From Pyrus communis (lineage: Eukaryota > Streptophyta > Magnoliopsida > Rosales > Rosaceae): a stretch of 64,000 bases of DNA. The stretch covers positions 1 through 64,000 of the forward strand of contig NW_026908891.1 in NCBI RefSeq assembly GCF_963583255.1. The letters are read 5' to 3'. A program made the position numbers and the translations under genes. This document shows positions 21,638 through 59,728 of the stretch, in pieces. The notes beneath the pieces are model-generated. The model was not told where the DNA came from. It saw only the letters and a list, made by a program, of their open reading frames with translations, and did no database searches. The number at the start of each line of letters is the position of its first letter. Position 1 is the first letter of the stretch.

Positions 21638-21642
21638 AATTT

Positions 21643-21661
21643 TGGCGCTGTTGCCAGGGAT
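21643..21661 (+). other. Primer binding site of element D, two mismatches
   Basis: TGGCGCTGTTGCCAGGGAT differs from the tRNA-Asp complement at two positions, although the LTRs are almost identical. Confidence 0.85.
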
Positions 21662-21767
21662 TAGCAAATTTGCTAATCTCTTGGATTGTTCGTTTCTGTT
21701 ATGTATTTTAGTTTTAGTTTTTTATTTGTGTTTTATTTGTTGAATTCAAGTACTAGAGAAGAACAAC

Positions 21768-22801: not shown

Positions 22802-22805
22802 TTTG

Positions 22806-22808
<3 letters not shown>

Positions 22809-22842
<34 letters not shown>
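22809..22842 (+). repeat. A34 run at cassette boundary, element D
   Basis: Pure A run starting eight bases after the stop of the sense ORF, before the antisense cassette. Confidence 0.92.
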
Positions 22843-22847
<5 letters not shown>

Positions 22848-22874
22848 GAAAAGAAAAATAAAAGAATGTAACTT

Positions 22875-24070: not shown

Positions 24071-26328
24071 TGTTGACCTTCGTCTTTTATGGCAAGGCAA
24101 ACCTGAAGAAAAATGCCCAACTCTCCCTCACCTCTGAGGGCGCACTCCCAGCAAAGCCTTTCGAAATACTCAATTCTTTCTTCTTCCCCAAAGATGATAC
24201 CAGATGCCTGGAGTACATATGACCCAGGAGGAAACGGCGGATTGAAGCATGTGCTGATTCATTCACCGCTTCTTCAAAGCAAAGGTATCTCATATCATCA
24301 AGGTCAAAAGCAAAAGTATCTCATATCATGCTCTTTCCCTGTCCTTTTCTTTGTCCTTGTTCTTACTCGCATGGCAAAGTGAATGAAGCAATCAACCGGC
24401 ACTTGGAGTCAGTCTTCCGATCTGGTTCCGACTGCCTGGAATTTATTCCTGGTTGCTTACCTAGCGTTGCTCTCGAGTAGTCATCTTCAACGGTTGATAC
24501 ACTTCCAGAGAAGGGACCACTCCTGCAAAGATTGAACAAAGAAACAGATAACAGGAGGAAGCTCAGACCTTCGGGGGAGACCCTAAAGGGAATCCTGCTG
24601 CCCAGTTCAAGAGTAGCACAAAGGAAAATCAACGATGGGCGGAAACCAGTTCAAGAGTAAGCCTGTGGAATCATCAAGATCAACCCATGCAATCACCAAG
24701 GAGAAGAGGGAATTTACACTCCATAACCAGATTTGCGTCCCTAAACTCTTCTCTTTGTTAGTTATATTCTGCTATGTTTAGTATGTTTAAGTGCTTTTTA
24801 TGTGTTTACTTATGTTTTGTGTGAATCTATGCTTAAAACATTGAGGACAATGTTTGATTTAAGTGTGGGGGGGTAACTAAGTATTTTTTATGCAAATTCG
24901 TGGGATTTTATCACCCATAACTTCAAATGTTGTTCCTTGCTGTTTTAAGGTGTTTTTAAGTTGTTTGAGAGTGTTTTAGTATGTTTTGTTTTTATAACTC
25001 CGAAAATCACATAAAAATTTGAAAAACATGTTTTGAAAAGCCTAAAAAGAGTGTTTTGAGTCGTTTTTGTGTGTTTGTGTCTTAGGGTACCTTCCAACAT
25101 AATGATAAGGATTTGGTTTGTAATTGCATGACTGTTAAAAAGAGTTATAAACATAGAGAAAAGTTTGATTTACTCTTGGTATATGCTTGGTTATGGTTAT
25201 AATGTATGACTTCACATGCAATCATAAAAGAAAAATTCGTTTTTGTAACATGCTTGAAGGAAGGAACTCAAACAAGCGCTACATCCCTATGAGACTCGAG
25301 CCAGTACTTTCTTTGGAGAGTTATTTTCTGTGATTCTTTGTTTTCTAAATTTGTTGCATGATCTCATTATTCCTTGCTAGGTTGCTACTTAGAATGGAAT
25401 TGTATCATGATAGAACTAAATGCTAGAACTTATATCCGTTTCATTCAAAGCATGACGTTGAATTGCATAACATATATCAAGATGAAGTTGTGTAGTTGCC
25501 ACCATAGCCAAATAGCCTTACTTCCCATATTTCGTATGTATTAGTTTTAACCCCGTTGAGCCTCGTTTAGCCTATTTTCTTTGTTAACCCGCATTATCCT
25601 CACCTAGCCTAGTGTAGGACAGTCCACACCCTTGTTCTTAAAAGATAGTGAGCATGACTTAAATGAATTCCTTTTGAGTTACATTATGCAAGAAAATGAG
25701 TGTGGGGGAAGGAAAGTTTGTTCTTAAGTTTATATGTATGTTTTGAGATTCAAAAGAGAAAAAAAAAAAAAAAAAAAAAAAAAAGAAAAGAAAAACATAT
25801 GAAAAAGAAAAACAGAAAAGAAAGGAAAAAGAGCTTGTTCCCCCTTGTTGTTCAAAAGTGAATTCTAAGTTAATTCAAATGCTTTGCTCGCTATTTCTTT
25901 AAGAACCTTTGTTTTCCATATCCCTTCTTTGTTAGCCAAACACCTTTAGCCCCGTTACACCCCTTTGACTTCTATCTTGATCGTTATGTGTTCAATAATG
26001 TGGAGTTTGGAATTGATATGAGCTTATGGAATCACTGGTTCTCATTCTAAGTAGTAGCATTCCATTAATGAGATCATATATATACATGTTAATAATTCCA
26101 GAAAATGCTTTCCTTGTTATAACATATGTGAGTGTTCGTCTACATGTTTACATCAATCTTCTCACATATACCTAGTGTAGGGAGTGTAGTCAGAAAATCT
26201 GTGTGAAAAACGAGAGTACATCTAGTAAGGAATTGAGGGAATTCTCTAAGGCATGTTACTACATTCAAAACATGGTTTTAAATGCTTAATTGTGAAATAA
26301 TATGTGGTGACTATGAGTAAGAATGTAC
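24071..26328 (+). other. Distal cassette and 3' noncoding region of element D
   Basis: The cassette ends near 24712. Beyond it is the shared noncoding region: hairpin AAACATTG/CAATGTTT near 24836-24855, AAGTGTGGGGGGG, GAGTGTGGGGG near 25700, and an A-rich tract 25760-25784. The target duplication TGTAC of the nested solo LTR is at 26324-26328. No credible gene. Confidence 0.7.
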
Positions 26329-28094
26329 TGATGCGATTATTTATACGCACACAAATTAAACCCTCTTTTTATCAATTGTAGTATAAGTATAAGTAGGGAT
26401 CGTTCTAGACCGGGGATTAGGAGGGATTGTTAACCACTTGGATTTGACTCAAAAACGTAAAATAACAATATGAAACACTATACTAGACTCAAGGAATGCA
26501 AAACTAAACTTTAAAACATTAAAACAAACCAAAAGACTCAAACATTACCCAAAACACTCAAAACTGCCTTAAAATCACTTTCTGGGCAGTTTTGAGCACT
26601 TTGAGTACTTTGGACGAATTTATGTAACAAATTGAATCACAACACTTATAAACACAAACTAAATTGATTTCTAACTAATTTGACAAGAAAGTAAAGGGGG
26701 ATTTAGGTTTTGACGAATTTAAACTAAAAGAACAGATTGTAAGTAAAAGCAAAATGTGAATGTGAATGTGTGATAGAATTGAATGGAATGACGGCTAGCT
26801 AAGGGGTTCATCTCCATACATGTTATACTTGCATAATAAAACGATTTCCAATTGCATTTCAATAAATCATTAATTCTCAACACTCCAAGTTAACCGTGAT
26901 GCACTAATTAACCTTCAAATCTTCCTAACGTTATTGAATTGGATGATTGCATACGACAACCCAAAACATTCCCCACAAGTCCCCTACATGATTGCATTAT
27001 AGAGATACAAGCAAGAATCATTACGCTCTATGAAAATTATAAGTGTTGACGGGGCATTCGTTACTATGATTGCATGAAACTTATGCCAAGAATTCGTTTA
27101 ACGCGATTGTTTATAAGCAACCTCCACTACTTGTGAATATAAGTTCGTAACTATTAGGTGAAACTCACTTATATTCTAGCGTCAAATTCATGCATGAAAA
27201 TTAAGTGTGCACTCTCAATAAACATACATAAATAAGTTATCAATCAAACAGTTAAACGAATTGAATCCACAACTTATGAAACGCAATTAGAAGTAATCAA
27301 ATCAAAATGCAAGCATAAACATATATTTCAAATCCCCCCCTAGCCAAGGGGGGTTTAGTTCCTCATACGTACAAAACAAAGAGAATCAAAGAAACACCTA
27401 AACATTCCAACAACTCGAACTTGAATTGTATGAACGTTTAGGCCCTCTTCTCTTCCATTCCTCATTCGTACAAAACAAAGAGTATTGAAATTAAACATTG
27501 AAATCAAAGAAACACCTAAACATTCCAACAACTCAAACTTGAATTGTATGAACGTTTAAGCCCTCTTCTCTTCCTCTTTGTTGCTGCACAAGGTCTAAGG
27601 TGAGTTTTGGGGATTATGGATGATGTAGAATGATAGGTTTTGTGTATGAATGGATGGGGAGTGGTTGGTGTGGCTGCAATGGAGGAGAAAAGTGTTTTGG
27701 TGGCTGCTGCAAGGGTGTGGAGAGGTTTTGACGAATTTCTGGAATATGGAAGAGTGAATGTGCATGTGGATTAAAGAGTGAATGGTGGCTGCAAAGTGAA
27801 TGAATAATGAAATGGGAAAGCATGTGCAAGGTTTTGGTGTGAATGATTGAATGTGCATGTGGCTGCAATGGATTAGGAATCCTTCATTTTCGTCCATTCC
27901 TTTTGCTCCAAACATAAGCTATCCATTCCAAGTCCAATTTTGCTCCAAAATGCTCCAAAATGCATCTTTTTGCTTCCTTAGCCATATGAACCTAAAAACA
28001 CACGAAAATGGCTTAAACTACTAAAACAACTATGAATTAACAATATAAATGCACGAAAACAAGCTAAGTAAGTCGCCTAAATATGCTCCTATCA
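26329..28094 (-). repeat. Solo LTR inside element D (1766 bp)
   Basis: Inverted LTR from TGATGCGATT to CTCCTATCA, with perfect TSD TGTAC (26324-26328 and 28095-28099). It belongs to the sub-type whose start reads TGATAGGAGCATATTTAGGC, as does the solo LTR at 59729. U3 is about 330 bp shorter than in that copy. It must have arrived after D, as a full element that later lost its interior by LTR-LTR recombination. Confidence 0.93.
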
Positions 28095-28099
28095 TGTAC

Positions 28100-28280
28100 T
28101 TAAGTATAAAGATGGCTAAAATCTGTGGGAATAATGATTTTTAACTTGTCATGTGCATTGGAAATCCATGAGACGATTGTTGGAAGGTGTAGGTTGTGTT
28201 TTGTTCGTTTTGTCTAGTTTCGTGTTCTTTTGTTGTTTTGTTTTGCTCGAGGACTAGCAAAAGATAAGTGTGGGGGTATT
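28100..28280 (+). other. End of element D interior with polypurine tract
   Basis: Noncoding continuation after the solo LTR, ending AAGATAAGTGTGGGGG and TATT (28261-28280) directly before the 3' LTR. Confidence 0.85.
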
Positions 28281-30587
28281 TGATAGGAGCATATTCATGC
28301 GACTTAAATGGCTTGTTCTCGTGCATTTACGTTATGTTTCTTTAGTTATTTTAGTACTTTAAGCTATTTTCGTGTGTTTGTAGGTCCAAAGGGCTAAAGG
28401 AGCAAAAAGATGCATTTTGGAGACTTTTGGAGCACTTTTGGGCTAAGGATGGATAGCTTATGCTTGGAGCCAAAGTGTTGGACGAAATTGAAGACCTAAT
28501 TGAAGACCAAAGTGTTGGAACCTTGTTCCCTTTAGTTTTAGGACATTTAAACCTTTCCAATTCCCTTATGCCGTGCATCTCCACAATCCCATTCATCAAC
28601 ACATGCATTCACATGCTTTCACAACCTAATCCACATGCTTTCCCATTACTTATCATCACCACATATCATACATTTATCACTTATCACTTATCATACACTT
28701 ATCACTTATCACTCATCATAACCATACACTTATCACTTATCATAACCACATATCATACACTTATCATCACCACTTATCACTTATCATCACCACATATCAT
28801 ATCACTTATCATAACCACTTATCACTTATCATAACCATACACTTATCACTTATCATACTCATAATCATTCACACCTTGCAGCCACATGCATTCCCCTTTT
28901 GCACATGTTTTCCCAATTCATTAAAACATTGCACATGCACTTTGCCTTTCATCATTGCACCACAAATCAGCACATTCACCTTCATTTCCAGATTGTCCCC
29001 TTGCACATGCAGCCACATATTCATTGCACATGCATTTCCACCCTTTAATCACATGCATAAATCAGCCACATGCATCTCCCATCACCATTCCAGATTTCCA
29101 CCAAGTTCCTAGCTGTCATGTTCCCCCCATTTCACCTATAAATAAGCATCCATTGCAGCCACAATTCATTCATTCCATTCTTCCACACACTCTTCCATAT
29201 TCCAGAAATTCGTCAAAACCTCTCCACACCCTTGCAGCAGCCACCAAAACACTTTTCTCCTCCATTGCAGCCACTCCAACCACTCCCCAAACCATTCACA
29301 CCACCAAAACTCACCTTAGACCTTGTGATACAACAACGAGGAAGAGAAGAGTGCCTAAACGTTCATACAATTCAAGTTTGAGTTGTTGGAATGTTTAGGT
29401 GTTTCTTTGATTTCAATGTTTAAATTCAATTCTCTTTGTTTTGTACGTATGAGGAATGGAAGAGAAGAGTGCCTAAACGTTCATACAATTCAAGTTTGAG
29501 TTGTTGGAATGTTTAGGTGTTTCTTTGATTTCAAAGTTATGAGGAACTAAACCCCCCTTGGCTAGGGGGGATTCGAAATATATGTTTATGCTTGCATTTT
29601 GATTTGATTACTTCTAATTGCGTTTCATAAGTTGTGGATTCAATTTGTTTAACCGTTTGATTGATAACTTATTTATGTATGTTTATTGAGAATGCGCGCT
29701 TAATTTTCATGCATGAATATGACGCTAGAATATAAGTGAGTTTCACCTAATCGTTATGAACTTATATTCACAAGTAGTGGAGGTTGCTTATAAACAATCG
29801 CGTTAAACGAATTCTTGGCATAAGTTTCATGCGTATTCCATAGTAACGAATGCCTCGTCGATGTTTATGATTTCCGTTGAACTTAATGATCTTTGTTGAA
29901 TGTCTCTATCATGCGTATTCCATAGTTAGGGACTTTGATTAGGAATAATTTGGTTGTAATGCGTATTCCATTCAATCCAATGAATCTAGGGAAATCTGAA
30001 AGTTAATTTAAGCGGACCTAATTAACTTGGAGCATTGAGAATTCATGGTTTATTGAAATGCAATTGGAAATCGTTTTATTATGCAAGTGTAACATGCATG
30101 GAGATGAACCCCTTAGTTATTCTATCATCCATTCATTCCATTTCATCATATTCATAGTTACATTCTGTTTTAATTGCAATTTGTTCATTTAATTTAATTT
30201 CGTATAAACCTCAATCCCCCTTTACTTTAGTGTCCAATTTAGTTAGAAAGTGTCTTAGTTTGTGTTTCTAAGTGTTTTGAATCAATTTATTAACCAATTT
30301 CGTCCAAAGTAGTCAAAGTGCTCAAAACTGCCCAGATTGTGTTTTTAAGGCAGTTTTGAGTGTTTGGGTGCTGTTTTGAGTCTTTTAGTTTGTTTGAGTG
30401 TTTTAAAGTTTAGTTTTGCATTCTTTGAGTCTAGTATAGTGTTTTATATTGTGTTTTACGTTTTTGAGTCAAATCCAAGTGATTAACAATCCCTCCTAAT
30501 CCCCGGTCCAGAACGATCCCTACTTACATACTTACTACAATTGACAAAAAAGAGGGTTTAATTTGTGTGCGTATAAATCACGCATCA
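28281..30587 (+). repeat. 3' LTR of element D (2307 bp)
   Basis: Nearly identical to 19329-21637. TATA box CTATAAATA at 29136-29144. It ends GCATCA, followed by the target duplication GGGTG. Confidence 0.95.
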
Positions 30588-32777: not shown

Positions 32778-33441
32778 TGATGCGAAAATTATACGCACAC
32801 AAATTAAACCCTATTTTTGACAATTGTAGTAAGTATGTAAGTAGGGATCGTTCTGGACCGGGGATTATGAGGGATTGTTAATCACTTGGATTTGACTCAA
32901 AAACGCTAAAAACACAATCTAAAACACTATACTAGACTCAAAGAATGCAAAACTAAACTTTAAAACACTAAGACAAACCAAAGACTCAAAATGCTTTAAA
33001 GCATAAACTAAATTGATTTCTAACTAAATTGAACAATAAGGTAAAGGGGGATTTAGGTTTTGATTAAACTAAATGACAGATTGTAAATTAAAGCATAAGG
33101 AAATGAAGTAAACACAAAATGAATGAATCAACAGCTAATAAAAAAAGATAGCACAAATGGAGATGAAGCTAGAGATTCGATTTCACCATTGCTAAGCCAA
33201 GTCCATGCTTGTTAAGTCAGATTATACTCATCCCTCTACTTATTTCTTGGGTTTGTTTCACTTAGATATGATCAGCCATATGATGTGTGGATTTGATCAA
33301 ATGTCTCTAATTATGAGCCTAATTGTGATGTGCAACTTTGGTTCCTAATCAAGACTATGTAGTGCACAAGAAACTTTCACAAAACCAAAGGGAACACTCG
33401 GCAGGATGTTTGCAAAACATTCCCTTCATTCATTCACATAT
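32778..33441 (-). repeat. Solo LTR F, part 1 (recombinant LTR)
   Basis: Inverted LTR starting TGATGCGAAA, with TSD GTCCT at 32773-32777 and 44659-44663. The first about 340 bases match the U5 end of the family. From about 33115 the sequence no longer resembles the other LTRs. The LTR is split by element E, whose target duplication CATAT is at 33437-33441. Confidence 0.88.
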
Positions 33442-35559
33442 TGATGCGAGAATTATACGCACACAAATTAAACCCTCTTTTTGTCGATTTGTAGTATGAG
33501 TATAAGTAGGGATCGTTCTGGACCGGGGATTAGGAGGGATTGCAAATCTCTTGGAAACTGACTCAAAAATGTAAAATAAAGTTTAAAACACTAAACTAGA
33601 CTCAAAGAATGCAAAATTAAAGTTTAAAACACTAAGACAAACCAAAAACTCAAAATGCTTTAAAAACACAAACTAAATTGAATTCTAACTAAAATGAACA
33701 TTAAAGCAAAAGGGGGATTGAGGTTTTTACGAAAATTGAAATAACGAAACAAGTTAATAAACTAGACAGAATGTAAATATGAAATTTATGGATGAATGCT
33801 AGCTAAGGGGTTCATCTCCATACATGTTACACTTGCATACAAGATTGATTCTCAGTTGGTCTTTCGATAAATTATGAAACTCAACGCCCCGGGTTAATTA
33901 GGTCCGCTTAAATTAACCGTCAAGTTCTCCTTAAGTTAATGAATTGGATGGGTTAGCGCAACGCAATTCACCACATTCTCCAAAAGTCCTTTACGTGAAA
34001 AGCACAATAAAGATACAATCAAAGATCATTAAGCATTATGAAAACTATAAGTGTTGACGAGGCATTCGTTACTATGGAATACCCATGAAACTTATGCCAA
34101 GAATTCGTTTAACGCGATTGTTTATAAGCAACCTCCACTACTTGTGAATATAAGTTCATAACGATTAGGTGAAATTCACTTATATTCTAGCGTCATATTT
34201 ATGCATGAAAATTAAGCGCGCATTCTTAATAAACATTCATAAATAAGTTATCAATCAAACGGTTAAACAAATTGAATTCAAAACTTATGAAATTCCAACG
34301 AAAGGTAATCAAATCAAAATGCAAGTATAAACATTTATTTCGAATCACCCCCTAGCTAAAGGGGGGTTTATTTCCTCATAACTTTGAAATTAAAGAAACA
34401 CCTAAACATTCCAACAACTCAAACTTGAATTGTATGAACGTTTAGGCACTCTTCTCTTCCATTCCTCATACGTACAAAACAAAGAGAATTGAATTTAAAC
34501 TTTGAAATCAAAGAAACACCTAAACATTCCAACAACTCAAACTTGAATTGTATGAACGTTTAGGCCCTCTTATCTTCCTCGTTGTTGTAGCACAAGGTCT
34601 AAGGTGAGGTTTGGGGGATTATGGAAATGGTAGAGGAGTGGTTTGGAGGGTTGGGAAGTGGTGGAAATGGAAAGATGGTTTTGGATTCTAAGGGGACTCA
34701 CGGCAAAGAGAAGAATGGAAGTGTTTGAGGGGTGTTGTGTTGTGAATGAGATGATGCTTGAATGAATGAATGCAAGGGTATTTATAGGGGGAATGGGAGA
34801 ATATGTGGGTGATTGTTTAAGAGTGAATGTGGTTGTTATGATTGAGAGTGCATGTGTATGAAATAATGATGGAAAAAGAGCTAGGTTGTTGGTGTGTGAA
34901 TGCATGTGTTGAATTGGTGGTGCAATGATGAAAGAGTAAGTGCATGTGTGTGTGAAAGAGTAAGTGCATGTGTGTGTGAATGGTGGTGTAATGATGAAAT
35001 AAATAATGCATGTAGGGTTAGGAAATAATGAAGAAATGCATGTGAGATGTTTGGAAAGGAATAAAGAATGAATGGTGGAAATGTGAGTGAATGATGTGCA
35101 TGTGTGAGAATGCATGTGGAATTAAGAGGAGTATGGAAGTGAAATAAATGAATGATATGTTAAGTGATAAGTGAATGATATGTGGTGAGTGATAAGTGAA
35201 TGGTTTGATAAGTGATAAATGAACTAGTTTAAAGGGCTAGGGTTTAAGTACATAGAATGGGCCTAAAATAGGTTGGTTTGTATGGCATAATGTGTTATGT
35301 GATTGGGTTAGGGCCATTGTTTTGTGTCTTCAAGTGCATACAAGGCCTTCAAATTCGTCCATCCTCTTGGCTCCATGGATAAGCTATCCAATCCATGCCC
35401 AAAAATGCTCCAAATGGCCTCAAAATGCACTTACTTGCTCCCTAGGCCCTTAGAACCTGAAAACACACAAAAGAAGCATAAAGGACTAAAATAACGAGAG
35501 AAACATAACGTAAATACACGAGAACAAGCCATTTAAGTCGCATGAATATGCTCCTATCA
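33442..35559 (-). repeat. 3' LTR of element E (2118 bp)
   Basis: TGATGCGAGA to CTCCTATCA on the plus strand. Same parts as in the other LTRs in reverse: hairpin CCCC/TAGCTAAA/GGGG near 34348-34366, duplicated block near 34390-34440 and 34510-34560, TATA box (minus CTATAAATA, 34779-34787), U3 with TGCATGTG repeats. Confidence 0.95.
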
Positions 35560-35582
35560 AATACCCCCACACTTAGCTTTTG
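35560..35582 (-). other. 3' polypurine tract of element E
   Basis: Complement reads AAAAGCTAAGTGTGGGGG then TATT, adjoining the 3' LTR. Confidence 0.85.
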
Positions 35583-36308
35583 CTAGTCCTCGAGCAAAAC
35601 AGAATAAAAACGAATAAACAAAACGACACTAAACACGTAAAACACAACCTAAACCTTCCAACAACCGTCTTAGGGATTTCCAATGCACATGACATGTTAA
35701 AAATCATCATTCTCACAGATTTTAGTCATCTTCACACTTAAGTACATTCTTAATCATAGTCACCATATACTAGTTCACAATTAAGCATTTAAAACCATGT
35801 TTTGAATGTAGTAACATGCCTTAGAGAATTTGCTCAATTTCTTTCAAGATATGCACTCAATTTTTACTCAGATTTTCTAACTACACACCCTAATCTAGTC
35901 ATATGTGAGAAGATTGATGTAAACATGAAAAAGACACTCACATATATGTATCACAAAGAACGCAAATTCTGGAGTTAATAATCAAGTTTAGATATGATCT
36001 CATGAATGGAATGCTACTACTTAGACGCAAGAACCAGTGACACCATAAGCTCATACCAAGTTCAAACTCCACAAATTGAAATACACAACACTCAAGATAG
36101 AAGTCAAGGGTTGTAACGGGGCTTGGGGTATGTGGATAACAAAGAAGGGATATGGAAAACAAAGGTTCTTAAAGAAATAGTGAGCAAGCATTTGAATCAA
36201 CTTAGAATTCACTTTTGAATGAAAACTCAACTTTTGAACAAAAAGGGAGAATTTAGACAATTTACGCCCAGAATTGGTGTTTTGGAACCTTTCTTCAATC
36301 ACTTATTC

Positions 36309-36356
<48 letters not shown>

Positions 36357-37400
36357 AATCTCAAAACAAAAACACTTAAACATTCTCTCCCCCACACTTA
36401 GCTTATTTTCTTTCATAATGTAACTCAAAAGGAATTCAATTAAGTCATGCTCACTATCTTTTAAGAACAAGGGTAAGGACGGTCATATTCTAGGTTAGGT
36501 GAAGATAAAGTGGGTTAACAAAGAACATGGGTTAACATGGCTCAACGGGGGTAAAACTTACAACATATACGAAATATGGGAAGCGAGGCTATTTGGCTAT
36601 GGTGGCAACTACACAACTTCATCTTGATATATGTTATGCAAATCAATAACATGCTTTGAATGAAATGGGCATGAGTTCTAGCATTTGGAACTATATGATG
36701 AAACGCCTTCTAAGTAGTAACCAAGCAAAGAATAATGAGATCATGCAACGACTTTAGAAAACAAGAAATCACAGATTATACTCTCCAAAGAACGTTATAG
36801 GCTCAAGTCTCTCAGGGTTGTAGCGTTTGTTTGAGTTCCTTCCTTCAAGCATGTTACAAAAACAAATTTTTTTTCTTTTATGATTGCATGTGAAGTCATA
36901 CATTATAACCATAACCAAGCATATACCAAGAGTAAATCAAACTTTTCTCTATGTTAATAACTCTTTTTAACAGTCATGCAATTACAAACCAAATCCTAAT
37001 CATTGTGTTGGAAGGTACCCTAAGACACAAACACACAAAAACGACTTAAAACACTCTTTTTAGGCTTTTCAAAACATTTTCTTCAAATTTTTATGTGATT
37101 TTCGGAGTTATAAAACAAAACACACTAAAACACTCTAAAACAATTTAAAAACACCTTAAAACAGCAAGGAACAACATTTGAAGTTATGGGTGATAAAATC
37201 CCACGAATTTGCATTAACAACATTAGTTACCCCCCCACACTTAAATCAAACATTGTCCTCAATGTTTTAAGCATAGATTCACACAAAACATAAGTAAACA
37301 CACAAACAGCACTAAACATACTAAACATGGCAGAATGTAATTAACAAAAAGAAGAGTTTAGGGACGCAAATCTGGTTATGGAGTGTAAATTCCCTCTTCT
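35583..37400 (-). other. 3' noncoding region of element E
   Basis: Inverted version of 3869-5690. It contains a long T run (about 36317-36355; A on the sense strand), the CCCCCACAC motifs near 36389 and 37231, and the hairpin CAATGTTT/AAACATTG near 37250-37270. No credible gene. Confidence 0.8.
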
Positions 37401-38128
37401 CCTTGGTGATTGCATTGAGGCTTGATCTTGATGATTCCACAGGCTTACTCTTGAACTGGTTTCTGCCCATTGTTGATTTTCCTTTGTGCTACTTCTTGAA
37501 CTGGGCAGCAGGATGGTTCTTTTGGTCTCCCCCGAAGGTCTGAGCTTACCCTTTTGGTCTGTTTCTTTGTTCAATCTTTCCAATTCGTATTGAAAAGGGT
37601 TGGAGGATAACTCAGCCTATGTTTGTCTCCACATGCTTCAATGTATCATTTTCACTTGCCTTACTCGCTCCCCTTTGCAGAAGTGGTCCCTTCTCCGGAA
37701 GTGTATCAACCGTTGAAGATGACTACTCGAGAGCAACACTAGGTAAGCAATCAGGAATATATTCCAGGCAGTTGGCTCCAGATCGGAAGATTGACTCCAA
37801 GTGCCGGCTGATTGCTTCTTTTACTTTGCCATGCGAGTAAGAACAAGGACAAAGAAAAAGACAGGGAAAGAGCATGATATGAGATACTTTTGCTTTTGAC
37901 CTTGATGATATGAGATACCTTTGCTTTGAAGAAGCGGTGGATGAATCAGCACATGCTTCAATCCGCCGTTTCCTCCTGGGTCATATGTACTCCAGGCATC
38001 TGGTATCATCTTTGGGGAAGAAGAAAGAATTGAGTATTTTGAAAGGCTTTGCTGGGAGTGCGCCCTCAGAGGTGAGGGAGAGTTGGGCATTTTCTTCAGG
38101 TTTGCCCTGCCATAAAAGACGAAGGTCG
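37401..38128 (+). other. Distal part of antisense cassette, element E
   Basis: Homologous to 3151-3868 in A. It holds possible splice-like and coding-like fragments but no frame conserved across copies. Origin unknown; it may be 5' flank of the captured gene. Confidence 0.55.
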
Positions 38129-38636
38129 ACATATATAGAGATAATATCAAGTGGTGGTACTTTTTACCCTTGTCGACAAACGTTTTGATCCCGCAATTCC
38201 GGCTTTTTGAAATAGTGGCGCCTCTTCGATCTTTGAATACGCCTCTTCGATTTCTGAGCAGGCGCCCCTTCGATTTCTGAACGACGCCCCTTCGCTTTCT
38301 GAATGACACGTGGTAGTGCAGATGCGGCTCCTTTTGACAAAGCTGCACGCGTTTTCTGAAAAGCAGAGAAAGCGTCGCCGGACTTTGCGTTTGTCGGCTA
38401 AAGATGTGTAGTTGCGATGATGGCCTCCACGTGCTTTCAGCTTTGTCAGAACGCGTCGCCTTGATTACGCCGGAAATTCCGGCTTTTTGAATTGGTGGAC
38501 GCGTCGCCTTGGCTTCTTATAGAGCTATCGATCACCACAACAAACACACTCTGAAGAACTCCCATTCTTGAAAATCGACTCCGACCCTTTGAAAATTTAC
38601 TCCATCAACCCCTATCTTTGAACACCTTTAAAAAAA
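38129..38636 (+). promoter_or_regulatory. Putative promoter and leader of antisense gene, element E
   Basis: Starts with ATATATAGAG (about 38131-38140). Then come repeats of CCTCTTCGATTTCTGA type (about 38218-38305), G-boxes CACGTG at 38307-38312 and 38428-38433, the dyad GCCGGAAATTCCGGC at 38469-38483, two GACGCGTCGCC-like motifs, and a TATA-like box CTTATAGAGC (38517-38526), followed by a CA-rich start region and about 110 bases of leader to the ATG. This order fits a pol II promoter better than retrotransposon interior. Activity not shown. Confidence 0.6.
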
Positions 38637-39323
38637 ATGGCAAACTCATCGAACCTTAGCTTGGAATTGAGCCTTAGCAGTGATACGGGCGCGCCGCGTC
38701 AAGGTAACGTATGGCGCCCTTCTTTTTTATCTTCTAACGGTCCTCTTTCAGGTGAAGACTCTGTGATGCAGGACGCCACAACAGCTACAATAGTAGCTAA
38801 GAATCTCCTCACTCCAAAAGATAGTAGGCTGCTGTCAGGACGGTCCGATGAGTTGGCCGTTCAAGAGTCCCTCGCACTTAGTGTTCAGTGTGCGAGCTCT
38901 GTGCCCAACATGGGCCTACGCCTGCTTGCCCGCTCCCGTCAGGTGGAATCGTTGATGGCAGAGGTGGAAAGACTTAAGCAAGAGATCCAGCAGCTTAAGT
39001 ACGAGAATAGAAGTTTGCATGTGCTTGCAAATAACTATTCGTCGGGGATGAAGAGGAAGCTTGATGAGCTGCAGGAATCTGAGGGTCGAATTCACAGTGA
39101 CCGTCAAAGGCTTGCGTCTTATCTCCAGAGGCACCTTTTTCCTGGGTCATCCAGCGCTTGGCCAAGTATTGAGGCCTGGAATGCTCTAGCTCCGATGCCT
39201 CCTGCTCCGATGGCTTCCGCTCCGATGCCTCCCGCTTCTATGCCTCCCGCTTCTATGCCTCCCGCTTCTGCGCCTTCCGCTTCTGCGCCTCGTAGTGGGG
39301 CTTCACGTAAACAACCTTTGTGA
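38637..39323 (+). CDS. Antisense coiled-coil protein, element E copy (228 aa, intact)
   Basis: ATG at 38637 (MANSSNLSLELSL), TGA at 39321-39323. Layout: polar N-terminus (1-60); conserved LTPKDSRLLSGRSDELAVQE (about 58-77); coiled coil to about 165 (ARSRQVESLMAEVERLKQEI, ENRSLHVLANNYSSGMKRKL); QRHLFPGSSS; tail of about 9 MPPAP/MPPAS/APSAS pentapeptides; end KQPL. It is antisense to the element, convergent with the sense ORF that ends at 39411, with T36 between the two. It keeps length and frame with A and D despite repeat changes, which hints at selection for an open frame. No catalytic motif; function unknown. Confidence 0.8.
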   Translation: MANSSNLSLELSLSSDTGAPRQGNVWRPSFLSSNGPLSGEDSVMQDATTATIVAKNLLTPKDSRLLSGRSDELAVQESLALSVQCASSVPNMGLRLLARSRQVESLMAEVERLKQEIQQLKYENRSLHVLANNYSSGMKRKLDELQESEGRIHSDRQRLASYLQRHLFPGSSSAWPSIEAWNALAPMPPAPMASAPMPPASMPPASMPPASAPSASAPRSGASRKQPL

Positions 39324-39357
39324 AGCTCCACCTTTCTCCATGTTTAGTATCTTTCTT

Positions 39358-39361
<4 letters not shown>

Positions 39362-39397
<36 letters not shown>
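39362..39397 (+). repeat. T36 run (A36 on element sense strand), element E
   Basis: Pure T run between the stops of the convergent antisense and sense ORFs. It corresponds to the A runs in A, B and D. Confidence 0.93.
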
Positions 39398-39402
<5 letters not shown>

Positions 39403-39410
39403 AAATAAAA

Positions 39411-40745
39411 TCAAACGGCATGGAATTTATCTTTGAATGGGCGGTGATACTTGAAATGATCCGGTAATAGTTTAAATTCCAGATTGGGTGCCTGAATCAT
39501 TAACCACATGTTAGTATAAAAGAAAATTGAAATTCGGGGATGCGGCTTACCTGTGTGCTCCAAAATGAACTCCAGAATAAACACCCCTTCGAAAGTTATG
39601 ACTTGTCCCGTGTCATAAAATCCAACTTCCTTGGGAATTGTGGTTTCAAATTTGTCCTCTTTGATGCCTTCTACATCTTCTCCAGCCACTACCTTCTCTT
39701 GAATCATTCTTCTTGGTGTACAAAGTCCTTTGAAGAATTCAACACCATCTAAAACTTGCTGTGTTGCACCAAGAATTTGAATAGCATTTTGCACCTTTGG
39801 GAAGGCTTCCACGATGTCCTTTTTACTCTCTTCTTGGTTGGGAATCAAAAACCTGTTAGGAAAAGGGACATTGGGTGGAATAACATCAGAATAACATGAA
39901 ATTGGGACGTCCTTACTGGTGGTGGGTGGTTTAGAGGGCTTAGGGGGCTGCGGCAAGGGTTGTTCTACCCTTGCCGTGTGCATGTCTTCTTCCTCCTCCT
40001 CAATTAGCAGCTCTTCATCCACTTCTAGGCTATGTTTGGACATTTTTAGGTCAGCTCCAACCTCCATAGCACTTCCCAAAGTGATAGCATTATGGATTTC
40101 AAAATCTTCCTTCGAGTTTTCAATAGTTGAGTTGGAAAGTTCACTTTGCTCTTGAATTTGTTTCATGAACTCCATAATCTGCCCAAATTGCTCGTCCAAT
40201 TTACCCAACTTCTTGTCTTGATTTTGTTCGTCCTGCGTCAAAGAGGTTAGTAATTGAAAATTTTTATCATTATCCATGGACATACTTGAACTTGATTGGA
40301 ATTGTTGTGGGGGAGGTTGTGGTGGCTGGATAGGTGTTGTATTGAACTCCTCATATGGTTGCCAATATGCTTCTTGTTGAGCCTCCTTGGCTTGATTTTG
40401 TGACCCCTGCGCCAAAGAATTTATTTCATTAAGAATTTGAATATAATCTATTGGCGAACTTGAATTTAATTGAGCATATTGCATATGAAGTTGTGGTGGC
40501 TGCATAGGTCTTGAATAGAACTCCTCATATGGTTGCCAATATGCTTCACGTTGAACTTGTTGATCTTCCCACCATATAGAGTTTGAATGATCCCTCCAAT
40601 CTCTTTGTGGACATTGATTGGCTTGAAATCCTTGCCTATACGAAGCACCAAATGTAGGGACACTCTGCATTGTGGTCCTTTCGGCATACGGCGACAATTT
40701 AGAAGTAAGATTTGCCAATTGAGCTTGAATGCTAGCAAAATCCAT
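39411..40745 (-). CDS. Truncated Gag-derived protein of element E (444 aa)
   Basis: Intact frame from ATG at 40745, about 150 bases after the PBS. The N-terminus (IQAQLANLTSKLSPYAER) matches the Gag linker just before the zinc knuckle of C (LQNQMANLTTLLSQ), but the knuckle itself is absent. Residues 67-124 and 125-180 are an imperfect duplication, each starting EAYWQPYEEF. Next come a predicted helix (LDEQFGQIMEFMKQIQEQ), acidic linkers, and an end (LEFKLLPDHFKYHRPFKDKF) like the leader before RT. No capsid core, protease or RT. It may have a Gag-accessory role, or may only keep the RNA open to translation. Confidence 0.78.
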   Translation of the reverse strand: MDFASIQAQLANLTSKLSPYAERTTMQSVPTFGASYRQGFQANQCPQRDWRDHSNSIWWEDQQVQREAYWQPYEEFYSRPMQPPQLHMQYAQLNSSSPIDYIQILNEINSLAQGSQNQAKEAQQEAYWQPYEEFNTTPIQPPQPPPQQFQSSSSMSMDNDKNFQLLTSLTQDEQNQDKKLGKLDEQFGQIMEFMKQIQEQSELSNSTIENSKEDFEIHNAITLGSAMEVGADLKMSKHSLEVDEELLIEEEEEDMHTARVEQPLPQPPKPSKPPTTSKDVPISCYSDVIPPNVPFPNRFLIPNQEESKKDIVEAFPKVQNAIQILGATQQVLDGVEFFKGLCTPRRMIQEKVVAGEDVEGIKEDKFETTIPKEVGFYDTGQVITFEGVFILEFILEHTGKPHPRISIFFYTNMWLMIQAPNLEFKLLPDHFKYHRPFKDKFHAV

Positions 40746-40897
40746 ATCTTACTTCTCTAGTACCTAAAAAGAAAGAGAACTAAATCAAAAATCAAAAGTA
40801 ACAACAAACAAAGAAAACAACACTAAGTTAGAAACTAAAACGAAAACAACTAAACCAAAAAAAAAAGAAAAGAACTAAGGGATTAGCAAAGTTGCTA

Positions 40898-40916
40898 ATC
40901 CCCGGCAACGGCGCCA
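40898..40916 (-). other. Primer binding site of element E (tRNA-Asp)
   Basis: Minus strand TGGCGCCGTTGCCGGGGAT, perfect complement to tRNA-Asp, five bases inside the 5' LTR. Confidence 0.94.
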
Positions 40917-40921
40917 AAATT

Positions 40922-43039
40922 TGATGCGAGAATTATACGCACACAAATTAAACCCTCTTTTTGTCGATTTGTAGTATGAGTATAAGTAGGGATCGTTCTG
41001 GACCGGGGATTAGGAGGGATTGCAAATCTCTTGGAAACTGACTCAAAAATGTAAAATAAAGTTTAAAACACTAAACTAGACTCAAAGAATGCAAAATTAA
41101 AGTTTAAAACACTAAGACAAACCAAAAACTCAAAATGCTTTAAAAACACAAACTAAATTGAATTCTAACTAAAATGAACATTAAAGCAAAAGGGGGATTG
41201 AGGTTTTTACGAAAATTGAAATAACGAAACAAGTTAATAAACTAGACAGAATGTAAATATGAAATTTATGGATGAATGCTAGCTAAGGGGTTCATCTCCA
41301 TACATGTTACACTTGCATACAAGATTGATTCTCAGTTGGTCTTTCGATAAATTATGAAACTCAACGCCCCGGGTTAATTAGGTCCGCTTAAATTAACCGT
41401 CAAGTTCTCCTTAAGTTAATGAATTGGATGGGTTAGCGCAACGCAATTCACCACATTCTCCAAAAGTCCTTTACGTGAAAAGCACAATAAAGATACAATC
41501 AAAGATCATTAAGCATTATGAAAACTATAAGTGTTGACGAGGCATTCGTTACTATGGAATACGCATGAAACTTATGCCAAGAATTCGTTTAACGCGATTG
41601 TTTATAAGCAACCTCCACTACTTGTGAATATAAGTTCATAACGATTAGGTGAAATTCACTTATATTCTAGCGTCATATTTATGCATGAAAATTAAGCGCG
41701 CATTCTTAATAAACATTCATAAATAAGTTATCAATCAAACGGTTAAACAAATTGAATTCAAAACTTATGAAATTCCAACGAAAGGTAATCAAATCAAAAT
41801 GCAAGTATAAACATTTATTTCGAATCACCCCCTAGCTAAAGGGGGGTTTATTTCCTCATAACTTTGAAATTAAAGAAACACCTAAACATTCCAACAACTC
41901 AAACTTGAATTGTATGAACGTTTAGGCACTCTTCTCTTCCATTCCTCATACGTACAAAACAAAGAGAATTGAATTTAAACTTTGAAATCAAAGAAACACC
42001 TAAACATTCCAACAACTCAAACTTGAATTGTATGAACGTTTAGGCCCTCTTATCTTCCTCGTTGTTGTAGCACAAGGTCTAAGGTGAGGTTTGGGGGATT
42101 ATGGAAATGGTAGAGGAGTGGTTTGGAGGGTTGGGAAGTGGTGGAAATGGAAAGATGGTTTTGGATTCTAAGGGGACTCACGGCAAAGAGAAGAATGGAA
42201 GTGTTTGAGGGGTGTTGTGTTGTGAATGAGATGATGCTTGAATGAATGAATGCAAGGGTATTTATAGGGGGAATGGGAGAATATGTGGGTGATTGTTTAA
42301 GAGTGAATGTGGTTGTTATGATTGAGAGTGCATGTGTATGAAATAATGATGGAAAAAGAGCTAGGTTGTTGGTGTGTGAATGCATGTGTTGAATTGGTGG
42401 TGCAATGATGAAAGAGTAAGTGCATGTGTGTGTGAAAGAGTAAGTGCATGTGTGTGTGAATGGTGGTGTAATGATGAAATAAATAATGCATGTAGGGTTA
42501 GGAAATAATGAAGAAATGCATGTGAGATGTTTGGAAAGGAATAAAGAATGAATGGTGGAAATGTGAGTGAATGATGTGCATGTGTGAGAATGCATGTGGA
42601 ATTAAGAGGAGTATGGAAGTGAAATAAATGAATGATATGTTAAGTGATAAGTGAATGATATGTGGTGAGTGATAAGTGAATGGTTTGATAAGTGATAAAT
42701 GAACTAGTTTAAAGGGCTAGGGTTTAAGTACATAGAATGGGCCTAAAATAGGTTGGTTTGTATGGCATAATGTGTTATGTGATTGGGTTAGGGCCATTGT
42801 TTTGTGTCTTCAAGTGCATACAAGGCCTTCAAATTCGTCCATCCTCTTGGCTCCATGGATAAGCTATCCAATCCATGCCCAAAAATGCTCCAAATGGCCT
42901 CAAAATGCACTTACTTGCTCCCTAGGCCCTTAGAACCTGAAAACACACAAAAGAAGCATAAAGGACTAAAATAACGAGAGAAACATAACGTAAATACACG
43001 AGAACAAGCCATTTAAGTCGCATGAATATGCTCCTATCA
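40922..43039 (-). repeat. 5' LTR of element E (2118 bp)
   Basis: Same as 33442-35559 except one base found. It is followed by the target duplication CATAT. Confidence 0.95.
42259..42267 (-). promoter_or_regulatory. TATA box of element E 5' LTR
   Basis: Minus strand CTATAAATA; the predicted start is about 30 bases to the left. Transcription would run leftwards through the Gag-derived ORF. Confidence 0.7.
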
Positions 43040-44658
43040 CATATCTACCAAGATTATGCATGATGTGTGCTTTAATCTTGGCTAAACAACCTGTGGTTAA
43101 TTCAAATGATGATCAAGCATTAAAATCAACACACTAAGTCACAATTAAATCGGAGAATGAAGCAAGAAATAGATAGATTAAATGAGAATTCCGAATTAAC
43201 TATATGGCAAACTTTGCAAGGCTACATCAAATCCCTAGAGGAGGATTAGTTACAATTCATGTTTGCAAAGGATTTAACATAAAAATATAAAACATGAATG
43301 AACATAGAATTAATAAGAAGAAAGAACCCTTGAAGCAAAACTGATGTAGAATCAAAGAAACACCTAAACATTCCAACAACTCAAACTTGAATTGTATGAA
43401 CGTTTAGGCCCTCTTATCTTCCTCTTCGTCATAGCACAAGGTCTAAGGGATGTTGTTGGTGTGTTGAATGGATTGGGGAATTATGGAAATGGAAAGATGA
43501 TGTTTGGATTGTAAGGGAGAGTCACGGCACAAAGGGGGGTTTATGGTCTACATTTCTGCAATGGATGAAGTGTATGAATGGAATGGATGGACTTTGTGAA
43601 GGGCACGGCCCCAAGGGACCAATTTCTGTTGTGAAATGAATTGTGTCTTGATGTGTGAAGTGTGCCTAGTTTTATAGGAAGGAATGTGGCTGCCAACATT
43701 CAGATTGGATCTTGGATCTGCACATGTGAGATGGAAGTGCATAAATGAGCTGGAATTGATGGGTTTTTGAGGTAGTGGATGCACGGCACTAGGGAAGTAT
43801 GCATGCATTTGGCTATTTTGGTTGAATCATGCATGTTTATTGGCTGCAAAGGCTGAAGTGACAACCTGGAAAGGGTATCAAAGTGCACGGCATAGACAAA
43901 GAGGAGCTGGAATCACATGGAATGATGGGATGAATGGTTTTCTGGAATAATGGGTGCATGGCAAAAGGGAAATGTGCAAGCATGGGGTTTATTTAATTGA
44001 GATGCATGTGGATTTCTGCAAAGATGAAGTGGAGAAAGGTAATGGAATGCACGGCAATGATGGTGATTGTTTGAATGATTTCAGATTGTGTGGGTGAGTG
44101 ATTAGGTTGGAAATGCATGTGAATGCAAGGTGTGAATGATTATGAGTGCATGTGGGAGAATTAAAGGATGGAATACATGGAATTAGGCACGACACAAAAG
44201 GAGTTTTCTGTGGTGCATGTGTTGATGTGAATGTGGACGACAATGGTTGGAGTGTGCAAGGGAATGCATGTGAAAAATGCATGTGAAAGCATGTAAATGC
44301 ATGTGTTGATGAATGGGATTGTGGAGATGTATGGCACATGTGTAGGAATGGGCTGGAATGTGTGGTGGATGAATGAGATTAGGAAAGGTTTAAATGTCCT
44401 AAAACTAAAGGGAACAAGGTTCCAACACTTTGGTCTTCAATTAGGTCTTCAATTTCGTCCACACTTTGGCTCCAAGCATAAGCTATCCATCCTTAGCCCA
44501 AAAGTGCTCCAAAAGTCTCCAAAATGCATCTTTTTGCTCCTTTAGCCCTTTGGACCTACAAACACACGAAAATAGCTTAAAGTACTAAAATAACTAAAGA
44601 AACATAACGTAAATGCACGAGAACAAGCCATTTAAGTCGCATGAATATGCTCCTATCA
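43040..44658 (-). repeat. Solo LTR F, part 2
   Basis: Starts with the CATAT duplication of E. About 300 bases of unfamiliar sequence follow, then from about 43349 the family LTR returns (AAACACCTAAACATTCCAAC) and runs to CTCCTATCA at 44658. U3 is unusually rich in GGCACGGCA and TGCATGTG motifs. Excluding E, F is about 2.28 kb. Confidence 0.88.
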
Positions 44659-45063: not shown

Positions 45064-47350
45064 TGATAGGAGCATATTCATACGACTTAAATGACTTGTT
45101 CTCGTGCATTTACGTTATGTTTCTTTAGTTATTTTAGTCCTTTAAGCTATTTTCGTGTGTTTGTAGGTCCAAAGGGCTAAAGGAGCAAAAAGATGCATTT
45201 TGGAGACTTTTGGAGCACTTTTGGGCTAAGGATGGATAGCTTATGCTTGGCGCCAAAGTGTTGGACGAAATTGAAGACCTAATTGAAGACCAAAGTGTTG
45301 GAACCTTGTTCCCTTTAGTTTTAGGACATTTAAACCTTTCCAATTTCCTTAGCCGTGCATAACATTCCAACATTCCACTCCTTCATTTCAGCCACACTAC
45401 CACATATCAAATCATCATCACTTATCACTTATCACTTATCATAACCACATATCATATCATCATCACTTATCACGTATCACTTATCATCATCACTTATCAC
45501 TTATCACTTAACATGCACCCATCACCTAACACAACACCTTTAATTCACATGCATTCACTCTTTAATTCACATGCATTTACTCTTTAATTCACATGCAAAA
45601 CACCTCCATTCCATCTCCCATTTCAGATTGCATTCCATAATCATTCACTCACCTTTAATCCACATGCATTCCATCCTTTAAAACATTGCACATGCACTCC
45701 CTTTAATTAATTAAGCCACATGCACTCCTATCCATATCATCATTGCAGCCAACACATGCTTTCACATGCATTTTCAGATTGTCCCCTTGCACATGCAGCC
45801 ACATATTCATTGCACATGCAATTCCAACCCACATGCATCCTTTAATCATTCAAACATGCAGCCACATTCCCTCCTAGCTGTCATGTTCCCCCCATTTCAC
45901 CTATAAATAAGCATCCATTGCATTCATTCTCAAACAATTCGTCCATATTCAGAAAATCATCCAAAACACCACCAGAAATCATCCCCTTGTGCCGTGAGTA
46001 TCCCTACTAATCCAAACACCACTCCAACCACTCCCCATCCCTCCAAAACACTTCACACTATCCCAAAACACACCTTAGACCTTGTGATACAACAACGAGG
46101 AAGAGAAGAGTGCCTAAACGTTCATACAATTCAAGTTTGAGTTGTTGGAATGTTTAGGTGTTTCTTTGATCTCAATGTTTAAATTCAATTATCTTTGTTT
46201 TGTACGTATGAGGAATGGAAGAGAAGAGTGCCTAAACGTTCATACAATTCAAGTTTGAGTTGTTGGAATGTTTAGGTGTTTCTTTGATTTCAAAGTTATG
46301 AGGAACTAAACCCCCCCTTGGCTAGGGGGGGATTCGAAATAGATGTTTATGCTTGCATTTTGATTTGATTACTTCTAATTGCGTTTCATAAGTTGTGGAT
46401 TCAATTTGTTTAACCGTTTGATTGATAACTTATTTATGTATGTTTATTGAGAATGCGCGCTTAATTTTCATGCATGAATATGACGCTAGAATATAAGTGA
46501 GTTTCACCTAATAGTTACGAACTTATATTCGCAAGTAGTGGAGGTTGCTTATAAACAATCGCGTTAAATGAATTCTTGGCATAAGTTTCATGCGTATTCC
46601 ATAGTAACGAATGCCTCGTCGATGTTTATGATTTCCGTTGAACTTAATGATCTTTGTTGAATGTCTCTATCATGCGTATTCCATAGTTAGGGACTTTGAT
46701 TAGGAATAATTTGGTTGTAATGCGTATTCCATTCAATCCAATGAATCTAGGGAAATCTGAAAGTTAATTTAAGCGGACCTAATTAACTTGGAGCTTTGAG
46801 AAGTCATGGTTTATTGAAATGCAATTGGAAATCATTTTATTATGCAAGTGTAACATATATGGAGATGAACCCCTTAGCTATTCTATCATCCATTCATTCC
46901 ATTTCATCAATTTCATATTTACAATCTGTTTTAATTAGAATCTGTGCATTTAGTTTAAATTCGTCCAAAACTCAATCCCCCTTTACTTTAATGTCAAATT
47001 AGTTAGAAATCAATTTAGTTTGTGTTTTTAAGAGTCTTGAGTCAAGTTACAACTTAATTTCGTCCAAAATTGTGTTTATACTCAAAACTGCCCAGAAAGT
47101 GGTTTTTAGGCAGATTTGAGTGTGTTTGTGCTGTTTTGAGTCTTTTAGTTTCTTTGAGTGTTTTAAAGTTTAGTTTTGCATTCTTTGAGTCTAGTTTAGT
47201 GTTTTATATTGTGTTTTTACGTTTTTGAGTCAAATCCAAGTGATTAACAATCCCTCCTAATCCCCGGTCCAGAACGATCCCTACTTATACTTATACTACA
47301 ATTTGACGAAAAAGAGGGTTTAATTTGTGTGCGTATAAATTCCCGCAACA
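45064..47350 (+). repeat. LTR in plus orientation, left arm of an inverted LTR pair (2287 bp)
   Basis: TGATAGGAGC to CCCGCAACA. TATA box CTATAAATA at 45901-45909. It is followed by AATTTTG (47351-47357), the first seven bases of an element interior up to the PBS, so this is the 5' LTR end of a truncated element. Positions 45064 to about 46341 pair with 47358-48607. Confidence 0.9.
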
Positions 47351-47357: not shown

Positions 47358-48607
47358 ATTTCAAATTACCCCCTAGCCAAGGGGGGTTTAGTTCCTCATA
47401 ACTTTGAAATCAAAGAAACACCTAAACATTCCAACAACTCAAACTTGAATTGTATGAACGTTTAGGCACTCTTCTCTTCCATTCCTCATACGTACAAAAC
47501 AAAGATAATTGAATTTAAACATTGAGATCAAAGAAACACCTAAACATTCCAACAACTCAAACTTGAATTGTATGAACGTTTAGGCACTCTTCTCTTCCTC
47601 GTTGTTGTATCACAAGGTCTAAGGTGTGTTTTGGGATAGTGTGAAGTGTTTTGGAGGGATGGGGAGTGGTTGGAGTGGTGTTTGGATTAGTAGGGATACT
47701 CACGGCACAAGGGGATGATTTCTGGTGGTGTTTTGGATGATTTTCTGAATATGGACGAATTGTTTGAGAATGAATGCAATGGATGCTTATTTATAGGTGA
47801 AATGGGGGGAACATGACAGCTAGGAGGGAATGTGGCTGCATGTTTGAATGATTAAAGGATGCATGTGGGTTGGAATTGCATGTGCAATGAATATGTGGCT
47901 GCATGTGCAAGGGGACAATCTGAAAATGCATGTGAAAGCATGTGTTGGCTGCAATGATGAAATGGATGGGAGTGCATGTGGCTTAATTAATTAAAGGGAG
48001 TGCATGTGCAATGTTTTAAAGGATGGAATGCATGTGGATTAAAGGTGAGTGAATGATTATGGAATGCAATCTGAAATGGGAGATGGAATGGAGGTGTTTT
48101 GCATGTGAATTAAAGAGTAAATGCATGTGAATTAAAGAGTGAATGCATGTGAATTAAAGGTGTTGTGTTAGGTGATGGGGTGCATGTTAAGTGATAAGTG
48201 ATAAGTGATGATGATATGATATGTGGTTATGATAAGTGATAAGTGATAAGTGATGATGATTTGATATGTGGTAGTGTGGCTGAAATGAAGGAGTGGAATG
48301 TTGGAATGTTATGCACGGCTAAGGAAATTGGAAAGGTTTAAATGTCCTAAAACTAAAGGGAACAAGGTTCCAACACTTTGGTCTTCAATTAGGTCTTCAA
48401 TTTCGTCCAACACTTTGGCGCCAAGCATAAGCTATCCATCCTTAGCCCAAAAGTGCTCCAAAAGTCTCCAAAATGCATCTTTTTGCTCCTTTAGCCCTTT
48501 GGACCTACAAACACACGAAAATAGCTTAAAGGACTAAAATAACTAAAGAAACATAACGTAAATGCACGAGAACAAGCCATTTAAGTCGCATGAATATGCT
48601 CCTATCA
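47358..48607 (-). repeat. Partial inverted LTR, right arm of the pair (1250 bp)
   Basis: Reverse complement of the U3-R half of the neighbouring LTR. Near-identical apart from a few bases, including two in the first 40, and a 27-base difference in the ATCACTTATC region. Its U5 half is absent. It abuts integrase codons at 48608 without TSD. Confidence 0.9.
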
Positions 48608-59723: not shown

Positions 59724-59728
59724 GCAGA

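Follow-up and report, generated by a model that had tools for sequence, protein, structure and literature searches.

The locus studied here raises the question of whether an open reading frame (ORF) that runs against the direction of the transposable element carrying it can be a gene, and of what such a gene would do for the element. The DNA analysed is a 64,000-nucleotide stretch of Pyrus communis (assembly GCF_963583255.1, contig NW_026908891.1, positions 1 to 64,000 of the forward strand; hereafter the window), which contains repeated copies of a non-autonomous, Athila-like long terminal repeat (LTR) retrotransposon with an antisense cassette that encodes a coiled-coil protein. We find that the antisense ORF is a real gene, under purifying selection stronger than that on the sense ORF of the same elements. 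The best explanation, to which we assign a probability of about 0.7, is that the cassette is a genuine antisense accessory gene of LTR retrotransposons with a promoter-like region of its own and a TOPLESS-type mechanism. It would belong to the known class of antisense additional ORFs between pol and the 3' LTR (aORF-3R; PMC7264820). For the conserved accessory gene as such we have high confidence.

Five cassette copies (A, B, D, E and H) were located by BLAST of parts of copy E against the window, and all five lie on the strand opposite to their own LTRs, as a first-pass annotation made from sequence alone had described. Its account of three full ORFs of 215-228 amino acids and two shortened ones also holds (A 228, D 215 and E 228, with B and H cut). 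The ratio of nonsynonymous to synonymous change (dN/dS, Nei-Gojobori method) is 0.13-0.36 in 10/10 pairs of the five copies. When the observed changes were placed randomly on the same sequence with base and CpG state kept (2000 runs), nine of the ten pairs gave at most 2 neutral runs in 2000 in which amino-acid or stop changes were no more numerous than in the data. Third codon positions account for 48 of the 73 variable sites (P = 1.5e-8; first 495 nt of A, B, D and E), each of the other five frames contains at least four stops (four pairs checked), and A, D and E differ by a single indel in the ORF, a multiple of three. The C-terminal repeat tail is looser, with dN/dS of 0.48-0.78 (three pairs). 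The ORF is thus preserved beyond chance, and the outcome that the first-pass annotation had named as telling against it, dN/dS near 1 with random stops, is absent. Ordinary decay, with the frame open by chance in young copies, would suit the age of the three dated copies (0.05-0.45 million years (My) by LTR divergence) and the breakage of two of the five. It is contradicted by the dN/dS, codon-position and simulation tests, which refute it for 9/10 pairs, and by 51% identity over the full length to a protein (P0104) from the other side of the family, and we give it almost no credence.

The sense ORF of these elements, a gag C-terminal or linker remnant, has dN/dS of 0.61-0.72 (three pairs), and the antisense gene is the best-preserved coding sequence among those measured in these copies. 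Conservation of the intact protein suggests usefulness to the jumping element. The protein might instead be a by-stander of an antisense RNA that forms double-stranded RNA with the element transcript and modulates silencing, a role raised as a possibility in a review of such ORFs (PMC7264820) and consistent with the convergent arrangement in 5/5 copies. Function at the RNA level alone does not predict the amino-acid constraint that is plainly seen, and we regard it as quite unlikely to be the explanation; it could act additionally.

The 228-residue protein has an EAR-like (ethylene-responsive element binding factor-associated amphiphilic repression) stretch, LELSL, at residues 9-13, a coiled-coil helix at 71-166 and a tail of Pro/Ala/Ser repeats. 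AlphaFold2, supplied with 108 sequences, predicted a single helix over residues 71-166, with 69 residues at a predicted local distance difference test (pLDDT) score of 90 or above and both ends below 50 (mean pLDDT 64.8, predicted template modelling score 0.35); the heptad pattern is clearest at residues 100-134. The alignment consisted of P0001 and 107 of the 120 matches listed by the protein search described below, the 13 rows left out being gene models longer than 260 amino acids plus P0043 (243) and P0056 (256). The EAR-like stretch falls in the disordered N terminus, where pLDDT is below 50, and its alternating hydrophobic residues are kept while flanking residues vary: the relaxed pattern [LF]xLx[LVIF] occurs in 102/108 rows, the remaining six having short or different starts, and residue 11 is leucine in all 105 rows with a letter there. 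The EAR motif is defined as LxLxL or DLNxxP (PMC6283911, PMC9956375). Judging from its sequence, the protein is probably a nuclear regulator that recruits a TOPLESS-type co-repressor; taken by itself, recruitment through the EAR-like motif, which we propose because that motif is conserved, is a tentative suggestion.

The same protein could instead work structurally with the virus-like particle or the pre-integration complex, as a scaffold or in nuclear import, and be no regulator of transcription. The predicted long coiled coil would suit such a role, and a packaging helper would be useful to copies that have no recognisable gag domain. Antisense encoding under a promoter-like region of its own is more in line with early or independent expression, and the conserved short motif at the N terminus would be left without explanation; we consider a structural role unlikely. 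The identity of the protein was also sought among solved structures and folds, where only generic coiled-coil matches appeared (E 0.07 or worse), and Foldseek returned no match for the predicted protein in PDB. Pfam matches to the coiled-coil families FBF1, ZapB and YabA fell below the cut-off and are regarded as generic, and plasmid and viral collections gave no match to the antisense protein.

Where did the gene come from? The first-pass annotation had proposed that a host gene, or part of one, was captured together with its promoter and amplified. A protein search returned 1348 relatives, and one 90% cluster has 2492 members. Of the 120 matches listed, 92 are labelled Malus or Pyrus and 28 carry no organism; a second search, for longer proteins, gave 49/49 matches labelled Malus or Pyrus. 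No organism-labelled relative outside these genera occurs among the matches listed (120 of 1348, and the 49 longer ones). Of the 28 unlabelled matches, 22 come from contigs 651-1851 nt long, a size close to the 0.9 kb expected for the mRNA; they were not counted as transcripts. A tree of 52 hand-picked rows, comprising 49 of 57 chosen rows and three added window copies, divides deeply once (support 100/97). Both genera occur on each side of the division, one holding 13 Malus, 13 Pyrus and four window rows, the other 18 Malus and 4 Pyrus. The window rows nest among Pyrus rows, in keeping with a pear source for the window. Eight of the 57 did not fit the core pattern and were skipped (P0014, P0150, P0152, P0026, P0042, P0159, P0160 and P0156), and P0037, on the DLN side of the tree, bears an LSL-type motif. 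We infer that the family is older than the Malus-Pyrus split. Ten members in public Pyrus records (P0005-P0008, P0010, P0014, P0146-P0148 and P0151) are named 'S ribonuclease' or 'S2-RNase', apparently through an annotation error that was carried over.

Several long Pyrus gene models continue from the antisense ORF family into a second protein. Two of six such fused models scanned had sub-threshold matches to Transposase_28 (PF04195), scoring 19.7 and 20.0 bits where the cut-off is 26.2. A search with the second part, which scored the 7993 candidates sharing most words, retrieved 110 proteins, all labelled Malus or Pyrus, and three of ten scanned match PF04195 at E <=0.01 (20.1, 19.5 and 17.3 bits). 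Fifteen of the 110 also contain the antisense ORF family, upstream in 15/15, and because this order is constant it would speak against mistaken fusion of neighbours in these models. Antisense proteins with the Transposase_28 domain (TRP28) are a hallmark of Retand elements (97% of clusters; PMC11963269). Since the family's gene adjoins a TRP28-like gene in the models, it appears to occur in more than one retrotransposon backbone. Six other Pyrus models (P0146-P0149, P0151 and P0043) have another coiled-coil part downstream, 6/6; their co-occurrence holds by construction, as they were found by searching with the antisense ORF family, and the two scanned (P0146 and P0149) had sub-threshold coiled-coil Pfam matches only. 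Neither partner part matches the window better than E 0.54. NET2A in P0153, which the Pfam list gives without a place, was taken to reflect a fused model, the family match lying at residues 673-811 (BLASTP).

A single capture of a host gene or fragment with its promoter by this element family, followed by amplification, could account for the compact, gene-like arrangement of TATA-like box, leader, A-rich start context and AATAAA, and for the annotation of family members as ordinary genes in apple and pear. A host relative could also hide among the 1228 of 1348 matches beyond those listed, or in other genomes. This origin is nevertheless unsupported: the labelled relatives listed are all from Malus or Pyrus, the split is deep with many copies on each side, and the Transposase_28-like neighbour, a weak match, recurs in one order in 15/15. 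Reviewed antisense ORFs are described as likewise having no host relatives (PMC7264820). We judge host capture improbable.

The rest of the earlier description, an antisense gene with a promoter-like region in a non-autonomous Athila-like family, is borne out, with part of the promoter argument weaker than described. The TATA-like box TTATAGAG is in all five copies, and the 22-bp tandem repeats are present in varying number (Table 1). One of the two G-boxes is general and the second is confined to E. The dyad GCCGGAAATTCCGGC is perfect in two of the five copies, E and B; neither it nor the second G-box is conserved. The layout is gene-like and the sequence promoter-like, which suggests an own promoter. 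These motifs may be shared by chance, as the whole upstream stretch is near-identical among copies: positions 37673-38200 show 0.02-0.07 differences per non-CpG site (ten pairs), less than the 0.17-0.21 at 4-fold sites of the ORF (six between-group pairs). Upstream conservation as a sign of function was rejected. Recombination fits better than constraint, because the ORF separates A, B and E as one group from D and H as another, a division that the upstream part does not show (D-E 0.033, D-H 0.064). Upstream exons of gene models (EYFERLCWEC...) match the upstream DNA of the cassette (13 stretches); as a candidate first exon this part was set aside as non-coding homology, its frame differing between subfamilies by eye. 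The sense ORFs that cross the upstream part (2932-3516, 13918-14769, 23593-24222, 37821-38348 and 59205-59792) were considered spurious, since single-base indels occur there in the alignment and the ORFs begin and end at different points.

Among known antisense systems, the closest in description is gene23 of the maize element Grande, which is antisense, has its own promoter and encodes a nuclear protein (PMC7264820). The cassette resembles it in being antisense with a promoter region of its own and one small protein, in most copies; unlike Grande, the cassette-bearing element is Athila-like and has no pol, and the two are likened by description. As in the aORF-3R class, the cassette is antisense (5/5), lies 5' of the 3' LTR and is conserved at the protein level. 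Its presence in most copies applies within the window, where five copies stand against one diverged relative without it. Retand elements also have an antisense region before the 3' LTR, encoding TRP28 (PF04195), and in gene models the family's gene is directly upstream of a TRP28-like gene; unlike the Retand proteins, the window protein has no PF04195 match. The ORF2 proteins of the pvRetro elements of common bean are antisense, some with an SMC domain (PMC4093653), and share with the cassette the opposite orientation, a coiled-coil type domain and an LTR retrotransposon host. They are mostly larger and belong to a Gypsy clade other than Athila, and are likened by description only. HBZ of human T-cell leukaemia virus type 1 (HTLV-1), which has a helical dimerisation region, is a parallel for which we claim no homology. 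It has been named as such, an antisense gene for a nuclear regulator (PMC11963269); the HTLV antisense promoter is located in the 3' LTR, unlike that of the cassette (PMC7264820). The pathogen EAR effectors HaRxL21 and Jsi1 bind TOPLESS (PMC7446885, PMC8126959) and are likewise parasite proteins with an EAR motif, differing in being secreted and unrelated. HODOR (KX869746), a high-copy apple and pear repeat of 9,716 bp (PMC13334179, PMC6901071), is comparable by description only to copy E, being an LTR element of similar length (E 9.6 kb) in the same hosts. Our searches of the open-access literature brought up no description of the cassette gene, and 'antisense' is absent from the main text of two pear LTR retrotransposon papers.

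We propose that the gene was passed by recombination between retrotransposon backbones, including Retand-type elements with Transposase_28-like antisense genes, and that no capture from a host gene took place within this element. The antisense RNA would be translated, and the protein would form an elongated coiled-coil oligomer, enter the nucleus and engage TOPLESS-type co-repressors through its N-terminal EAR-like motif. By this means the element's own transcription or silencing, or that of host genes, may be tuned to favour element spread, as by HTLV antisense factors. A bolder version, which we consider doubtful, is a selfish co-repressor recruiter: an EAR-bearing coiled coil in a promoter-plus-gene cassette that would move among unrelated LTR backbones and steer host or element transcription. 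In that version the antisense protein would be the only strongly constrained gene of apple and pear non-autonomous elements, which is doubtful to the same degree.

A number of observations weigh against the proposed explanation. The cassette gene is known here from DNA and predicted protein alone. Pair D-H is indistinguishable from neutral (267/2000 runs), and the ORF pairs are non-independent, forming the two groups given above. The minus-strand offset-1 frame has a similar excess of silent changes, with 7-8 stops; this arises because its third positions are shared with the antisense ORF frame. The sense gag-linker ORF is itself probably still read, because most of its indels preserve the frame (exceptions 2/11, 3/10 and 1/5). 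The strict EAR patterns are rarer than the relaxed one (LxLxL in 46/108, DLN in 31/108), and 24 family members have LNLNV. Transposase_28 gave no match at E 0.1 in window proteins, the antisense protein included, and PF04195 was not among the 25 families listed (59 in all) for 31 relatives; all its matches elsewhere are sub-threshold (17.3-20.1 against 26.2 bits). The 15 fused models comprise 13 from Pyrus, all from one annotation, and two from Malus baccata. Seven had themselves prompted the second-part search, four rely on family matches of at most 60 residues, and gene-model fusions also merge unrelated neighbours, for example P0156 to P0158.

What antisense ORFs do in plant LTR retrotransposons is described as an open question (PMC7264820, PMC11963269), and this family makes it testable: the protein is short, there are very many natural copies and young elements with intact ORFs, the motif is specific with a clear mutation prediction, and one element offers a strongly constrained antisense ORF beside a sense ORF under weaker constraint. 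Should the gene-model evidence hold, antisense genes would circulate among element lineages. The explanation also accounts for gene models of apple and pear, S-RNase-named ones among them, as transposon genes.

Table 1. Coordinates of the cassette copies, their host elements and candidate signals in the window.
Feature	Position	Strand	Basis or remark
Copy E, complete non-autonomous LTR element, very young	33442-43039	-	LTR pair; ends and flanks inspected
Copy E 5' LTR	40922-43039	-	1 difference from 3' LTR over 2117 compared bp
Copy E 3' LTR	33442-35559	-	Repeat pair search
Primer binding site TGGCGCCGTTGCCGGGGATT, copy E	40897-40916	-	Sequence inspection
Sense ORF, 444 aa, gag C-terminal/linker remnant, copy E	39411-40745	-	Sub-threshold Pfam match, E 0.041
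Copy D	19329-30587	- (ORF strand)	Target-site duplication GGGTG
Antisense ORF, copy A, 228 aa, intact	1875-2561	-	ORF list, alignment
Antisense ORF, copy B, out of frame after codon 168	13278-13847	-	Alignment
Antisense ORF, copy D, 215 aa, intact	22875-23522	-	ORF list, alignment
Antisense ORF, copy E, 228 aa, intact	38637-39323	+	ORF list, alignment
Antisense ORF, copy H, first 116 codons, truncated at junction with its LTR	58829-59178	-	BLAST, alignment
Upstream promoter-like part of cassette	37400-38636	+	BLAST; some Pyrus and Malus gene models have upstream exons matching parts of it
22-bp tandem repeats, 4 units in E	38219-38307	.	Unit number differs among copies
Second CACGTG	38307-38312	.	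Only in E
G-box CACGTG	38428-38433	.	In 5/5 copies
Dyad GCCGGAAATTCCGGC	38469-38483	.	Perfect in 2/5 (E, B)
TATA-like TTATAGAG	38517-38524	+	In 5/5 copies, ~120 nt 5' of ATG
Probable 5' untranslated leader, A-rich start context	38547-38636	+	Sequence, alignment; start site inferred
AATAAA, candidate poly(A) signal of antisense transcript	39404-39409	+	In A and E, absent from D (three compared)
pol of the related autonomous element (RT, RNase H, integrase), with copy A inserted in it	8292-10826	-	Pfam, BLAST
gag (Retrotrans_gag) of autonomous element	16345-17571	-	Pfam

Copy E is flanked by the target-site duplication CATAT (33437-33441 and 43040-43044), its LTRs were detected as a near-identical pair of 2123 bp, and its order is LTR, primer site, gag-linker ORF, cassette, 1.8-kb tail, polypurine tract and LTR. 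A and D have the same layout, with B and H cut, and in A, D and E, which retain the gag-linker, the cassette follows the sense coding part and precedes the 3' LTR. By Pfam scan the cassette-bearing copies have neither pol nor a recognisable gag domain. The primer site TGGCGCCGTTGCCGGGGA is common to A and E, the autonomous copy departing from it at one position and D at two; we take it to be of the tRNA-Asp type, as in Athila. The lineage name is likewise our assumption, taken from motifs and the primer site and not from a tree, with pol domains present. The autonomous Athila-like element (8292-17571) includes a gag-protease part at 15259-16290, is split by insertions A and B, and is flanked by LTRs of the same family as those of the cassette-bearing copies. 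With the pear rate of PMC6409787, 4.72e-9 per site per year, the copies date to about 0.05 My (E), 0.23 My (D; 5 LTR differences in 2306) and 0.45 My (A; 3 differences in 710 nt of LTR). The diverged relative at 31086-33061 matches in the 3' tail at 74% identity, with no cassette match at the cut-offs used.

Several minor features of these elements were also recorded. A 181-aa sense ORF lies within both LTRs of E (34570-35115 and 42050-42595), and a Pfam scan of one copy gave no match. A run of 36 T residues (39362-39397) separates the antisense ORF from AATAAA and differs in length and purity in A and D. Two LTRs in opposite orientation (45518-46316 and 47381-48179) form a 799-nt inverted repeat with 100% complementarity. 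Comparison of E (35570-40870) with A, B, D and H points to a mosaic history, the grouping of copies differing by element part; the A-E divergence K is 0.35 in the gag-linker and 0.064 in the antisense ORF.

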